DNA of 64,000 bases. It comes from an uncultured Cohaesibacter sp. GTDB taxonomy: Bacteria; Pseudomonadota; Alphaproteobacteria; Rhizobiales; Cohaesibacteraceae. Below, in pieces: positions 57,437-62,483 of this stretch (positions are counted from its first letter, which is position 1; each line of letters begins with the position of its first letter). The position numbers and the translations under genes are program-made. The stretch spans positions 868,001 through 932,000 of the forward strand of contig NZ_OY781114.1 in NCBI RefSeq assembly GCF_963676485.1, given 5' to 3'. The notes under the pieces were generated by a model. The model did no database searches. It was not told the DNA's origin and saw only the letters and a program-made list of their open reading frames with translations.

Positions 57437-58105
57437 ATGAAAAAGCTTTTAGCAGTTTGCGTTTTAACGGCTTGCTTTATCGCGGGTATCATTCTGACCT
57501 ACGAGACCCCTGCAAACTCTAACCAGCTGAATGGGACACGTCTGACTTCAGCGGAAAAACGCGAAGCCGAGAGCAAGATCGAGTCCTTTCTTGAATCGAA
57601 CATGGCCTATTTCGATCCCTTCAGCGATCAGGTTAAGGTCAACAATTGCAAGATCACCTATCGTTTGAATAGGGCTGGCGATTGTAAAAGATCGCCGACA
57701 GCGCGCTACAACGAGTTTCAGATTGATCTGAAAGATGTGCGCAAGGTGCGCATTTTTGAGAATTCACACCGCGGCACGGGCGCTGCTGGTGCCATCCGGT
57801 TTGAATTCACCCAAGAAGTGCAAAAGCGATTTGACCGCGCCAAGCACCTGTTCGAACGCTATAATCAGGACAATACCGGCTATACTGGGTCCATGTGGGC
57901 GCAGGAAACCTATGCAGCAGAACAGAATGCGGTGAAAGGCGCAGGCCTTTCAAATATGAGCAGCTATGCCAAAACCCAGAATTGCTCGCGTAGTATCCAG
58001 CGGTTCCATCTTCCCAAGACGCTGGGCACCATAACCTTGTCAACGGTGGACCGTGGCGCAGCCCACAGCCTGAAAAGCTATCACGCCAACTGTATCGAGA
58101 GCTAA
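57437..58105 (+). CDS. Exported protein of unknown family, paralogue 1
   Basis: A 222-residue protein that I do not recognise. An N-terminal signal or anchor (LLAVCVLTACFIAGIILTY) is followed by a soluble, basic, mixed alpha/beta domain. Cysteines at 71, 83, 183 and 219 (KVNNCKITYRLNRAGDC, TQNCSRS, KSYHANC) are shared in spacing with the next gene's product, as are the C-terminal blocks HLPKTLGTITL and LKSYH. Two disulfides in the periplasm are likely. No catalytic motif is visible. It starts ATG 57437 in an A+T-rich stretch. Confidence 0.75.
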   Translation: MKKLLAVCVLTACFIAGIILTYETPANSNQLNGTRLTSAEKREAESKIESFLESNMAYFDPFSDQVKVNNCKITYRLNRAGDCKRSPTARYNEFQIDLKDVRKVRIFENSHRGTGAAGAIRFEFTQEVQKRFDRAKHLFERYNQDNTGYTGSMWAQETYAAEQNAVKGAGLSNMSSYAKTQNCSRSIQRFHLPKTLGTITLSTVDRGAAHSLKSYHANCIES

Positions 58106-58307: not shown

Positions 58308-58985
58308 ATGAAAAAAAAAATTATCGTTTTAACCTCTTTATTCTCGGTGATCATTGTTGCCATCTGTTTTATGGCGCTTTTCGAAGAGAAGAGCTTTGCC
58401 AGAATAAAGCCGCTCTTTAGCAAGCAAGAGGTCGCTCGGATGGAAGGCACCATCCAGAAAGCGCTCTCGGAGACGTCCAATGTGGCTTATGGCAGCGAGT
58501 TGGTCGTGAATGATTGCACCATTGTCAATCGCGTTGAAGCGGCACGCAATTGCTCGGACCCCTATGCGCTTCGCCTGCAGGAATTTCGCCTCGATATCAA
58601 GGAGACAACATCCGTCACCCAGTCCAGTCTTGTTTCCAGCAAACCGGGGCGACAAACCCTCGTGAAGTTCAATTTCAAGCCGGAAATCGCACACAAAGTG
58701 CAGAGCGCCAAACAGCAGATGTGGGACTATGTGAGCGAAAAGCACGGTTTGCGAGGGGTCGCCTGGAGCGAATTTGCAGAAACTGCCGAGCAGCACCTCG
58801 TAAAGCAATATGGCTTTGACAAACTGGGCAGCTATGATGTCACCCAGACATGTGGCTCCAGCAAGAAAATGCGCCATCTGCCAGAAAAACTCGGAACCTA
58901 TATTCTGAACGGCGAAACCAGAGATCTAGTCCGGGCGATCAAATCCTATCACCAATATTGTGTGACATCCGGTTCCTCAAGCTGA
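58308..58985 (+). CDS. Exported protein of unknown family, paralogue 2
   Basis: A 225-residue protein, clearly related to its 222-residue neighbour. Signal or anchor helix IIVLTSLFSVIIVAICFMAL, then a soluble domain with cysteines at 70, 82, 182 and 218 (VVNDCTIVNRVEAARNC, TQTCGSS, IKSYHQYC), identical spacing (12, 100, 36) to paralogue 1, and HLPEKLGTYIL. Most other positions differ, so the duplication is old. The two genes lie on the same strand with 202 bases between, so each may have its own promoter. ATG is followed by a run of AAA lysine codons. Confidence 0.75.
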   Translation: MKKKIIVLTSLFSVIIVAICFMALFEEKSFARIKPLFSKQEVARMEGTIQKALSETSNVAYGSELVVNDCTIVNRVEAARNCSDPYALRLQEFRLDIKETTSVTQSSLVSSKPGRQTLVKFNFKPEIAHKVQSAKQQMWDYVSEKHGLRGVAWSEFAETAEQHLVKQYGFDKLGSYDVTQTCGSSKKMRHLPEKLGTYILNGETRDLVRAIKSYHQYCVTSGSSS

Positions 58986-59085
58986 TACCCGTAACTTGGT
59001 GCTGGGCGGATGGCGTTGTCCGGACGCAGGCATCCACTGCCGCGCCATTGACAGTTGGCATCTTTCGGCGTACAGAATGTCGCAC

Positions 59086-59146
59086 TTGTGGTCATTTGAG
59101 CCGACCGGCTTGCCGCCACGTAAAAGAATGTTGCTAAAAGGTCGGG
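59086..59146 (+). promoter_or_regulatory. SAM-II riboswitch (metA element) of metZ
   Basis: The sequence GGTCATTTGAGCC (from 59090), GGCTTGCCGCCACGTAAAA and TTGCTAAAAGG (59131-59141) matches the SAM-II consensus. P1 is TGTGG (59087-59091) with CCACG (59116-59120). The pseudoknot is CCGACC (59101-59106) with GGTCGG (59140-59145), a perfect 6-bp match. SAM-II aptamers bind S-adenosylmethionine and repress methionine biosynthesis genes in alphaproteobacteria; metZ, the typical target, starts 146 bases downstream. Confidence 0.9.
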
Positions 59147-59200
59147 GATGAAAAACAGTCTATCCCGGCCATACTAACCAATGTTGCCGGGTTTTATTTT
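59140..59200 (+). terminator. SAM-dependent terminator/antiterminator of the metZ leader
   Basis: CCCGGC (59164-59169) and GCCGGG (59186-59191) form a stem followed by TTTTATTTT, an intrinsic terminator. Alternatively GGTCGGGGAT (59140-59149) can pair with ATCCCGGCC (59162-59170), 9 bp with one G-U and one bulge, which would destroy the terminator. The same 59140-59145 bases are the 3' strand of the SAM-II pseudoknot, so SAM binding should favour termination and its absence read-through. Confidence 0.8.
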
Positions 59201-59291
59201 GCCCAAAATCCGGTCTTCACAAAGAATGAGCCCAAGCGTCTGCGGTGTTCTGCTCCAAAAGGCGTGGGCAAAGCAAGAACAGGATTGTGCC

Positions 59292-60488
59292 ATGTCTGAG
59301 ACCAAAAAGCCCGAAACCGGTTACCGCCCCGCTACCGAAATGGTCCATGGAGGCGTTATGCGTTCGCAGTGGGGGGAAACTTCCGAAGCGCTTTTCATGA
59401 CGCAGGGTTATGTCTACGACAGTGCTGAAGCTCAGGAGGCCCGCTTCAATGGCGAGGAACCGGGCTATGTCTATTCGCGCTATTCCAATCCGACCATCTC
59501 AATGTTTGAAAATCGCATGGCGCTGCTGGAAGGCGCAGAAGGCGCTCGTGGTACAGCCTCCGGTATGGCGGCTGTTTCCTCGGCCATGCTCTCCTGCGTC
59601 AAGGCCGGTGATCATGTGGTTGCCGCTAGCGCGTTGTTCGGCTCATGCCTTTACATCGTCTCCGAGCTGCTGCCCCGCTTCGGCGTCGAATGCACATTGG
59701 TCGATGGCACCAATCTGCAAGAATGGAAAGCCGCGATGCGGCCCAACACCCGCGCCTGTTTCCTTGAGAGCCCGACCAACCCGGTATTGTCTGTGATCGA
59801 TATTGCCGGTGTGGCTGCAATCGCCCATGAGGCCGGCGCCAAGCTGGTGGTCGATAACGTCTTCGCAACGGCCATGTGGCAAAGCCCGCTGGCACTGGGG
59901 GCCGATGTGGTCATCTATTCGGCCACCAAGCATATCGATGGCCAGGGCCGCTGTCTGGGTGGCGTCGTCTTGTCGAGCGAACAGTTTCTGGAAGAAGAAT
60001 TCAAGGATATCCATCGCCATACCGGCCCGTCCCTGTCTCCTTTCAATGCATGGATCATGCTCAAGGGGCTGGAAACCTTCCCGCTCCGTGTCAAGGAACA
60101 GACCCGCAGCGCGGGCATTCTCGCTGACCGTCTGGCAAAACACAAAGCCATCGAACGCATTTTCTATCCTGGCCGAGATGACCATCCGCAGGCTGACATC
60201 TGCAAGAAGCAGATGCGCGGCGGCTCGACCATGATTGCGCTCAATGTTGCAGGCGGCAAGGAAAAGGCCTTCCAGTTGGAAAATGCGCTCAAGGTCATCA
60301 AGATTTCCAACAATCTGGGCGATGCCAAGAGTCTGATCACTCATCCGGCCACCACCACACACCAGCGCCTCACCGATGAACAGCTGGCTGATGCCGGGAT
60401 CGGTCAGGGCACGCTGCGTTTCTCGGTCGGCCTTGAAGATGTGGAAGACCTCTGGGAGGATTTCGAGCAGGCTCTGGCGAGCCTCTAG
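59292..60488 (+). CDS. metZ: O-succinylhomoserine sulfhydrylase
   Basis: A 398-residue PLP enzyme of the Cys/Met metabolism family that joins O-succinylhomoserine and sulfide to give homocysteine in methionine synthesis. Blocks: YSRYSNPTISMFENRMALLEG, ASGMAAVSSAMLS, ESPTNPVLSVIDI, VVDNVFATAMWQSPLALGAD and the PLP lysine in SATKHIDGQGR. The start MSETKKPETG at 59292 replaces a longer frame from 59181, which would include leader RNA. A SAM-II riboswitch precedes it, and a terminator follows. MetZ versus other sulfhydrylases is judged from overall resemblance and the riboswitch. Confidence 0.94.
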   Translation: MSETKKPETGYRPATEMVHGGVMRSQWGETSEALFMTQGYVYDSAEAQEARFNGEEPGYVYSRYSNPTISMFENRMALLEGAEGARGTASGMAAVSSAMLSCVKAGDHVVAASALFGSCLYIVSELLPRFGVECTLVDGTNLQEWKAAMRPNTRACFLESPTNPVLSVIDIAGVAAIAHEAGAKLVVDNVFATAMWQSPLALGADVVIYSATKHIDGQGRCLGGVVLSSEQFLEEEFKDIHRHTGPSLSPFNAWIMLKGLETFPLRVKEQTRSAGILADRLAKHKAIERIFYPGRDDHPQADICKKQMRGGSTMIALNVAGGKEKAFQLENALKVIKISNNLGDAKSLITHPATTTHQRLTDEQLADAGIGQGTLRFSVGLEDVEDLWEDFEQALASL

Positions 60489-60520
60489 TCTTCACCAGAG
60501 ATCACCGATTGATCAATTTG

Positions 60521-60545
60521 GGGGTGCTTTTTCCAAAAGCACCCC
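60521..60545 (+). terminator. Intrinsic terminator after metZ
   Basis: GGGGTGCTTTT, 3-base loop, AAAAGCACCCC: a perfect 11-bp stem 33 bases after the metZ stop. A T-run lies within the stem and the following bases are TATTGCTTT, so a strong hairpin with a modest tail. Confidence 0.8.
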
Positions 60546-60623
60546 TATTGCTTTCCCGATGCCTTGAAGCTGTCCCCTTTCCTCGCATAGACTGGGGCCA
60601 TCACGTCCAAAAGGCAAAGATAA

Positions 60624-61343: not shown

Positions 61344-62483
61344 CTACCCCTCCAGCCCCAGCGGCTTACGCAAACGGATGCCAACCCAAGACCCGGCAAA
61401 TGCGGCCACGAACCAGGCCCAACCATGTAGGCTTCCGGTCGAGATGCCTGAGAAGAAGGCACCAACATTACAGCCCAGCGCCAGACGGGAAGAATAGCCG
61501 AGCAGGAAACCCGCCACGATGGCCGCAATCCATGCCCTTGCTGGCAGAGAAGGCAGTTTCGCCTTAAGGCCGGACCGCCAGACAGCCACGATAAAGGCCC
61601 CCAGAATAATCCCGAGATCGGTCAGCGATGTATAATCGGTCAGCAGGCTTGCTGCGAGCCGCTCCTGATGAGCGGCACTCGCCCAATAGGGAGAGGCAGA
61701 CAGATCCGTGCCAAGGGCGCTGGTGACTTTTGCACCCCACAGTCCGAGCCCATAGACAACGCCCCAAGGCTGACCGGCCACGACAAAGTTGGCCACCGCC
61801 AGCGCTGCAATCAACAAGGCAGCCATCACAAGGCGGCGTGGAATCCTGCGGGCCTGTTTGGGGGCAACGCCAAGCGCAACGAGGCCCACGGCTACGAGCC
61901 CCAGAATGGTGATGCCAAGACCGGTTGTTCCCTCAAGAACCACCAATGGCAGTTGGCCCAGTTCCGTCCACCAGAGCAGATGGTAAGATCCGGCAAAGGC
62001 TCCGATGATGAAGAAGGGGAGCGCAATCACGCTCACCGGATTGCCGCTGCCTGCATTGACCAGCGTACCGGAGCCACAGCCGAGCACCAACTGCATCGCG
62101 GCACCGAAGACGAAGGCTCCGCCCACCATGGCCCAACCGATGGCGGCATGCGCCCCGATCAACTCGGGGTGATCTCCCGATAGAAGCGGGAAGGCGACCC
62201 CAGCCACCAGTGCTATAGCGAGGAGCTGGGCAAGGAGCCCGGCTGGTTCGCGACGCAAAATCATGGCCCGCCATGGTCCGGCAAAGCCGAACCGCAGACC
62301 TTCAAGCGTCAGTCCGAAGCCAATACCAATGGCCAGCAGCAGCCCGTAACGAACGCCAGCTGCGGCAATCAGGACCAGAATGGCTGCAAGGGTCACCCCG
62401 ATCAGGGCACCCTTCGTAAACAAGCGAGACCCCTTGGAAGGGGTCTCAAAAGAAGCGCTGATATCAGTCACTGGATTAGCCAC
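61344..62483 (-). CDS. YeeE/YedE-family sulfur transport protein
   Basis: A 379-residue polytopic inner-membrane protein with the two cysteine-bearing repeats of thiosulfate transporter YeeE: LVLGCGSGTLVNAGSGNP and LALGCNVGAFFSGISTGSLHGWAW. YeeE imports thiosulfate (or related sulfur compounds) through conserved Cys positions. The start is GTG at 62483, overlapping the rhodanese stop by eight bases, with AGGTAA upstream. Together with rhodanese upstream it indicates uptake and processing of thiosulfate-like sulfur. Confidence 0.92.
   Translation of the reverse strand: MANPVTDISASFETPSKGSRLFTKGALIGVTLAAILVLIAAAGVRYGLLLAIGIGFGLTLEGLRFGFAGPWRAMILRREPAGLLAQLLAIALVAGVAFPLLSGDHPELIGAHAAIGWAMVGGAFVFGAAMQLVLGCGSGTLVNAGSGNPVSVIALPFFIIGAFAGSYHLLWWTELGQLPLVVLEGTTGLGITILGLVAVGLVALGVAPKQARRIPRRLVMAALLIAALAVANFVVAGQPWGVVYGLGLWGAKVTSALGTDLSASPYWASAAHQERLAASLLTDYTSLTDLGIILGAFIVAVWRSGLKAKLPSLPARAWIAAIVAGFLLGYSSRLALGCNVGAFFSGISTGSLHGWAWFVAAFAGSWVGIRLRKPLGLEG

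Follow-up and report, generated by a model that had tools for sequence, protein, structure and literature searches.

The leader of metZ in the window (by which we mean the whole 64,000-nucleotide stretch of DNA that was analyzed) very probably carries a SAM-II riboswitch that controls this gene by SAM-dependent termination of transcription, where we infer both the SAM dependence and the kinetics from the sequence and from fold models. The basic metZ switch is of a known, ordinary kind and adds one member to a known class. The sole part of it for which no description was found, in titles, abstract openings, and parts of the cited papers, is a conserved strand located behind the terminator.

According to the proposed mechanism, which is formulated here with five RNA strands numbered 0 to 4 in the order of their synthesis, transcription would begin a few bases 5′ of the P1 hairpin of the aptamer. 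If SAM is bound while the leader is being made, helix P2 (0:1) would lock strand 1, leaving strand 2 free for pairing with strand 3, and RNA polymerase would release a transcript about 115 nt long. With little SAM present, strand 1 would pair with strand 2 first, which gives the antiterminator, and the polymerase would pass. In the group of loci to which the window belongs, strand 4, lying just 3′ of the U-tract, would then form pairs with both strand 3 and the U-tract, and the read-through mRNA would settle as 1:2 plus 3:4 without a return to the terminator fold.

SAM-II aptamer, promoter, and metZ

A cmscan search revealed that positions 59078–59157 of the forward strand match the family RF00521 (SAM_alpha, that is SAM-II) with 59.6 bits (gathering score 36, E = 7.3e-11). 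This bears out the earlier note on this DNA, which had claimed a SAM-II element here and had named an Infernal search with RF00521 as the check. The match is the single one in the genome at E ≤ 0.001, no second riboswitch reached its Rfam gathering score within the 64-kb window, and all five related loci that were re-scanned matched RF00521 as well. In the cmscan alignment, the P1 hairpin extends over 59087–59120 (+), with strands at 59087–59092 and 59115–59120. The perfect CCGACC/GGTCGG pseudoknot that had been claimed was confirmed in the sequence: strand 0, the 5′ strand of P2 (CCGACC), lies at 59101–59106 (+), and the 3′ strand (GGTCGG) at 59140–59145 forms part of strand 1 (59140–59149, +), which is at the same time the 5′ strand of the antiterminator. 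Hence, the covariance model match, the P1 and P2 strands, and the position before a gene of methionine/SAM synthesis, by which SAM-II elements are recognized, were all found together.

The gene metZ itself (59292–60488, +) encodes an O-succinylhomoserine sulfhydrylase of 398 aa (NF005696, 690.6 bits, cut-off 675; TIGR01325, 544.3 bits, cut-off 510.05), and the nearest proteins among eight named loci are those of Cohaesibacter marisflavi (96%), C. haloalkalitolerans (95%), and C. celericrescens (86%), which places the window in a Cohaesibacter. The metZ start codon at 59292 lies 91 nt past the U-tract, in agreement with the earlier claim that metZ follows after about 90 more bases of leader, and it is preceded by a probable Shine-Dalgarno sequence, AGGA (59281–59284, +), within a region (59278–59291) in which 13 of 14 columns are invariant among nine loci. 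A longer reading frame of 435 aa, starting in frame at 59181, was rejected: as judged by eye, a stop interrupts this frame in L012, and in L013 the ATG is replaced by GTG.

Several further features were seen around the gene. A protein similar to the sulphur transporters YedE/TsuA is encoded near metZ on the reverse strand (61344–62483; PF04143, 152.5 bits), scoring under the NCBIfam cut-offs for named transporters, and a strong hairpin of 13 pairs about 30 nt past metZ (60519–60547), with a short T-run, is likely the end-of-gene terminator. Two adjoining proteins of 222 and 225 aa (57437–58105 and 58308–58985), sharing 29% mutual identity, form a tandem pair; their start is hydrophobic, as judged by eye, and neither Pfam nor NCBIfam gave a match for them at E 0.001.

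On the 5′ side of the aptamer, a −35 element TTGACA (59048–59053, +), invariant in the nine loci of the window's group, is followed after a 17-nt spacer by a probable −10 element TACAGA (59071–59076, +; five of six columns invariant in nine loci), which was absent from the list of a generic promoter scan. From this arrangement, transcription would be expected to start near 59084, just 5′ of P1. The motif TTGAC was present 34–48 nt 5′ of P1 in 123 of the 139 loci sampled (see below), including 19 of 19 in the family, compared with 2.35 expected from shuffles, and the same placing of the promoter is described for SAM-II in parts of PMC1273637.

Terminator, antiterminator, and the course of folding

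The CCCGGC/GCCGGG terminator claimed in the earlier note is indeed present, with its 5′ arm at 59164–59169, a 16-nt loop, its 3′ arm GCCGGG (strand 3) at 59186–59191 (+; six of six columns invariant in nine loci), and, behind it, the U-tract TTTTATTTT at 59192–59200 (+; nine of nine columns invariant in nine loci). It was absent from the output of a generic scan, which takes loops of 3–8 only. Strand 2, the 3′ strand of the antiterminator (59162–59170, +; eight of nine columns invariant in nine loci), overlaps the 5′ arm of the terminator and can form nine pairs with 59140–59149, one G·U among them, with G59147 bulged. Both strands share bases with P2 or the terminator, as the note had described for this mutually exclusive pairing, and the antiterminator is therefore incompatible with P2 as well as with the terminator. 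The leader thus holds two features of a terminating riboswitch, an intrinsic terminator between aptamer and ORF and an antiterminator exclusive of both P2 and that terminator. The fold of 59160–59200 reached −12.2 kcal/mol (z −2.79; 1 of 200 shuffles equally good), and longer stretches, folded without pseudoknots, were ordinary in comparison with shuffles (59140–59200, z −0.73; 59078–59203, z 0.17).

The leader was folded at growing lengths in two states, one free and the other with P1 enforced and the strands of P2 kept from pairing elsewhere, the latter being a stand-in for SAM binding; the fold model is thermodynamic, and both pseudoknot energy and kinetics lie outside it. In the free leader ending at 59175–59185, when the 3′ arm is not yet made, the antiterminator had a probability of 0.89–0.90. 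The earlier proposal of a switch in which SAM sequesters 59140–59145 fared unevenly at ends 59192–59200: it is supported by a predicted terminator probability of 0.99 with P2 engaged, whereas the equilibrium of the free leader also favors the terminator (0.94–0.96), with P1 down to 0.02–0.03. Given this preference of the free leader at the U-tract, antitermination has to be decided by kinetics; in the model, the antiterminator is the earliest fold that can form, and it has to last, kinetically, until the U-tract has been passed. When the transcript had grown to 59216, the free leader was predicted to contain the antiterminator at 0.91, hairpin 3:4 at 0.96, and the terminator at 0.00, and the corresponding values at 59310 were 0.80, 0.80, and 0.13. 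With P2 engaged and the end at 59216, the terminator was still at 0.92 and 3:4 at 0.07. With the 22 nt past the U-tract masked, upstream pairing of the window's arm had a probability of 0.97. The fold of 59200–59310 was no more stable than those of shuffles.

At E 0.001, RF00521 matched 19 of the 20 genomes searched in the family, 111 of the 150 in the order, and 141 of the 289 in the class; the numbers with a score above the cut-off were 19, 109, and 124, respectively. Our sample of 139 loci, which is a part of all matches, was composed of 19 loci from the family, 30 from the order, and 30 from the class (best matches first), together with 60 hand-picked order regions; it was not de-duplicated and holds several near-identical loci (e.g., L021–L023), and L080–L087 were not counted. 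A terminator-like hairpin occurred within 170 nt in 109 of the 139 loci (18/19 family, 67/90 order, 24/30 class), and at least L030, L089, and L108 among the 30 loci scored as terminator-free seem, by eye, to have one with a short stem or a long loop. These counts speak against a premise of the earlier note, namely that SAM-II elements are mostly described as translational, and so does a published survey, seen in part, in which terminators are the commonest association of SAM-II; putative terminators between P2 and the ORF are likewise noted for many SAM-II representatives in parts of PMC1273637. The premise may stem from a 2024 review (PMC10907184), which, in the part considered here, lists SAM-II among riboswitches that directly occlude the ribosome site, and the basic metZ switch corrects it.

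Two other readings of the leader were weighed against SAM-controlled termination. In one of them, which we regard as highly improbable, the terminator would be a plain attenuator or the end of an sRNA, free of SAM control. The equilibrium of the free leader at the U-tract, which favors the terminator, fits such an attenuator; against it stands the finding that strand 1, half of which belongs to P2, complements the terminator 5′ arm with a duplex of ≤ −9 kcal/mol in all 18 family terminators, as it does in 96 of the 109 terminators overall (54/67 order, 24/24 class). Compared with shuffles of the arm, p 0.05 was reached by 57 of the 109 only (18 family, 32 order, 7 class). In 65 loci, the duplex score was 17.2 for the own arm, 17.0 for swapped arms, and 12.3 for shuffled ones, strand 1 being nearly constant, and, as arm swaps leave the score unlowered, we speak of conserved complementarity and not of demonstrated covariation; in L002, L033, and L078, GACCGG in strand 1 goes together with CCGGTC in the arm, as judged by eye.

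The other reading, also very unlikely in our judgment, holds that the aptamer acts on translation, with AAGG at the start of strand 1 serving as a Shine-Dalgarno sequence for the AUG at 59148, and that the terminator escapes SAM control. The ATG, 6 nt past AAGG, indeed opens a frame of nine codons, MKNSLSRPY (59148–59177), and parts of PMC9373788 report for metA of S. meliloti that a Shine-Dalgarno sequence inside the riboswitch is needed for translation starting 74 nt downstream and that the metA terminator has no predicted SAM response. However, the frame is not conserved: an ATG occurs at the place equivalent to 59148 in 9 of 19 family loci, of which seven have the nine-codon frame, one has a stop as the second codon, and one runs on. 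Furthermore, metZ owns the conserved AGGA region, and strand 2 complements strand 1, as an antiterminator requires. MKNSLSRPY was rejected as a conserved leader peptide too, because the peptide sequence varies among loci. As a separate observation, the ATG...TAA frame overlaps the strands of both the antiterminator and the terminator, and nine codons are kept in seven of nine loci of the window's group. We retain SAM-controlled termination as the preferred reading of the metZ leader.

A conserved strand behind the U-tract

Strand 4 (AAAATCCGGT, 59205–59214, +), for which a latch function in hairpin 3:4 is proposed, complements 59186–59195, that is, the terminator 3′ arm and four U. For its analysis, the leaders of 17 same-genus loci were compared by eye, with no tree, and the loci sorted into about four groups of related sequences: A (L001, which is the window, and L012–L019), B (L004, L005, L011), C (L006, L009), and D (L003, L007, L010). 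The same-genus counts exclude L002 and L008, which represent the remaining two genera of the family; in L008 the scan finds no terminator, and its sequence contains an N. In the nine loci of group A, strand 4 is invariant in nine of its ten columns, and the remaining column holds T or C, so that a G·U or G–C pair is kept, while the leader behind it (59215–59277) has 9 of 63 columns invariant and an identity of 32–54% between subgroups. In group A, the stretch of leader from strand 4 to the Shine-Dalgarno sequence is long and changes fast, and the other same-genus leaders are shorter. A second terminator past strand 4 was considered and rejected, there being no T-run behind strand 4 in the window.

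When a 46-nt stretch was folded to its minimum energy, at least five of the six arm bases were paired downstream in 17 of 17 same-genus terminators (6.7–6.9 expected), a pattern that was spotted first and tested afterwards (post hoc) on sequences that are related. Outside the genus, the counts were 17 of 67 in the order (27.4 expected) and 6 of 24 in the class (8.8 expected), and the sister-genus locus L002 had no 3:4 pairing (0/1). When the duplex of the arm with downstream sequence was compared with shuffled downstream sequence, the mean z was −2.12 for the 18 family terminators, L002 included (12 of 18 below 0.05), 0.06 for 23 order terminators, and −0.06 for 24 class terminators. Position 3 of the 3:4 helix is C–G in 11, U–A in 4, and U–G in 2 of the 17 loci, and by total hairpin energy, only 3 of the 17 beat shuffles at p 0.05. 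When arms were swapped between groups, the mean favored a locus's own arm in groups B, C, and D (in group B, via L011 alone), and in the window's group A the own arm was not favored.

For group A, the predicted equilibrium flips from the terminator to 3:4 in all nine loci at +16 and +22 nt, and in eight of the nine at +32 and +45. At a threshold of 0.5, the flip was seen among the eight other same-genus loci in one at +16 (L005), one at +22 (L003), and none at +32 and +45, and outside the genus in 3–4 of 67 order and 1–2 of 24 class loci. Because the flip is found in group A and rarely elsewhere, a latch is credible for that group, and for the other groups 3:4 is a possible pairing.

Based on these fold models, we tentatively suggest, as an idea that we hold to be rather doubtful, a switch made of a five-strand chain that settles as 0:1 plus 2:3 (SAM bound, terminated) or as 1:2 plus 3:4 (read-through), with a latch acting after the decision. 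Strand 4 would exist solely in RNA that has passed the termination point; it is made after the termination decision and therefore has no part in it. The escaped mRNA would hold the ON fold and resist late refolding, and a kinetic decision would in this way be turned into a stable state. Holding the escaped mRNA in the ON fold would be the likeliest role of strand 4, the alternatives being stability or processing. It is quite possible, if short of probable, that strand 4 serves a different purpose, for instance in the stability or the processing of read-through mRNA or through an influence of the downstream DNA on termination, and that hairpin 3:4 is incidental. Its conservation is silent on which partner matters, its CCGG is self-complementary and can, by eye, also pair with the aptamer strand near 59103–59108, and a SAM-linked change in metZ mRNA stability, namely stabilization under high SAM, is reported for S. 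meliloti in parts of PMC9373788. On the other hand, the AAAA of strand 4 specifically matches the U-tract, and partner changes across groups preserve the pairs at helix position 3. If true, the latch would be an element added to SAM-II specifically in the Cohaesibacter lineage and a testable case of a riboswitch that stabilizes its own decision past the terminator; strand 4 bears on the question of how riboswitches whose outcome is set kinetically are kept from refolding once the mRNA is complete.

Comparison with known systems

The switch shares with the SAM-II elements with intrinsic terminators (PMC1273637, PMC2258182) the terminator between P2 and the ORF and the switching by a pseudoknot, and it differs from them in its post-terminator strand, of which the parts of these papers considered here make no mention. 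The SAM-II/SAM-V tandem, as presented in parts of PMC9481103, also has SAM-II followed by a terminator; in contrast, the window has no second riboswitch at the gathering score. A candidate terminator/antiterminator leader before metX or metZ is likewise known from the metXZ RNA element of beta-proteobacteria (parts of PMC4239095), which is, however, a separate RNA element from another bacterial class, whereas the window matches RF00521. In Gluconobacter oxydans, gene and aptamer are alike, SAM-II preceding O-succinylhomoserine sulfhydrylase, and the RNA-seq coverage of the 5′-UTR was 20-fold over that of the ORF, which the authors read as termination (PMC5756330, in part). The metZ gene of S. 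meliloti with its sRNA RZ resembles the window in the gene, the aptamer class, and the terminator predicted upon SAM binding, and it differs in that no strand past the U-tract is mentioned in the parts of PMC9373788 considered here. According to the same parts, SAM-driven termination is predicted there, and with high SAM the RZ sRNA goes up and metZ mRNA goes down; RZ has a size of about 100 nt, compared with about 115 nt for the terminated RNA predicted here.
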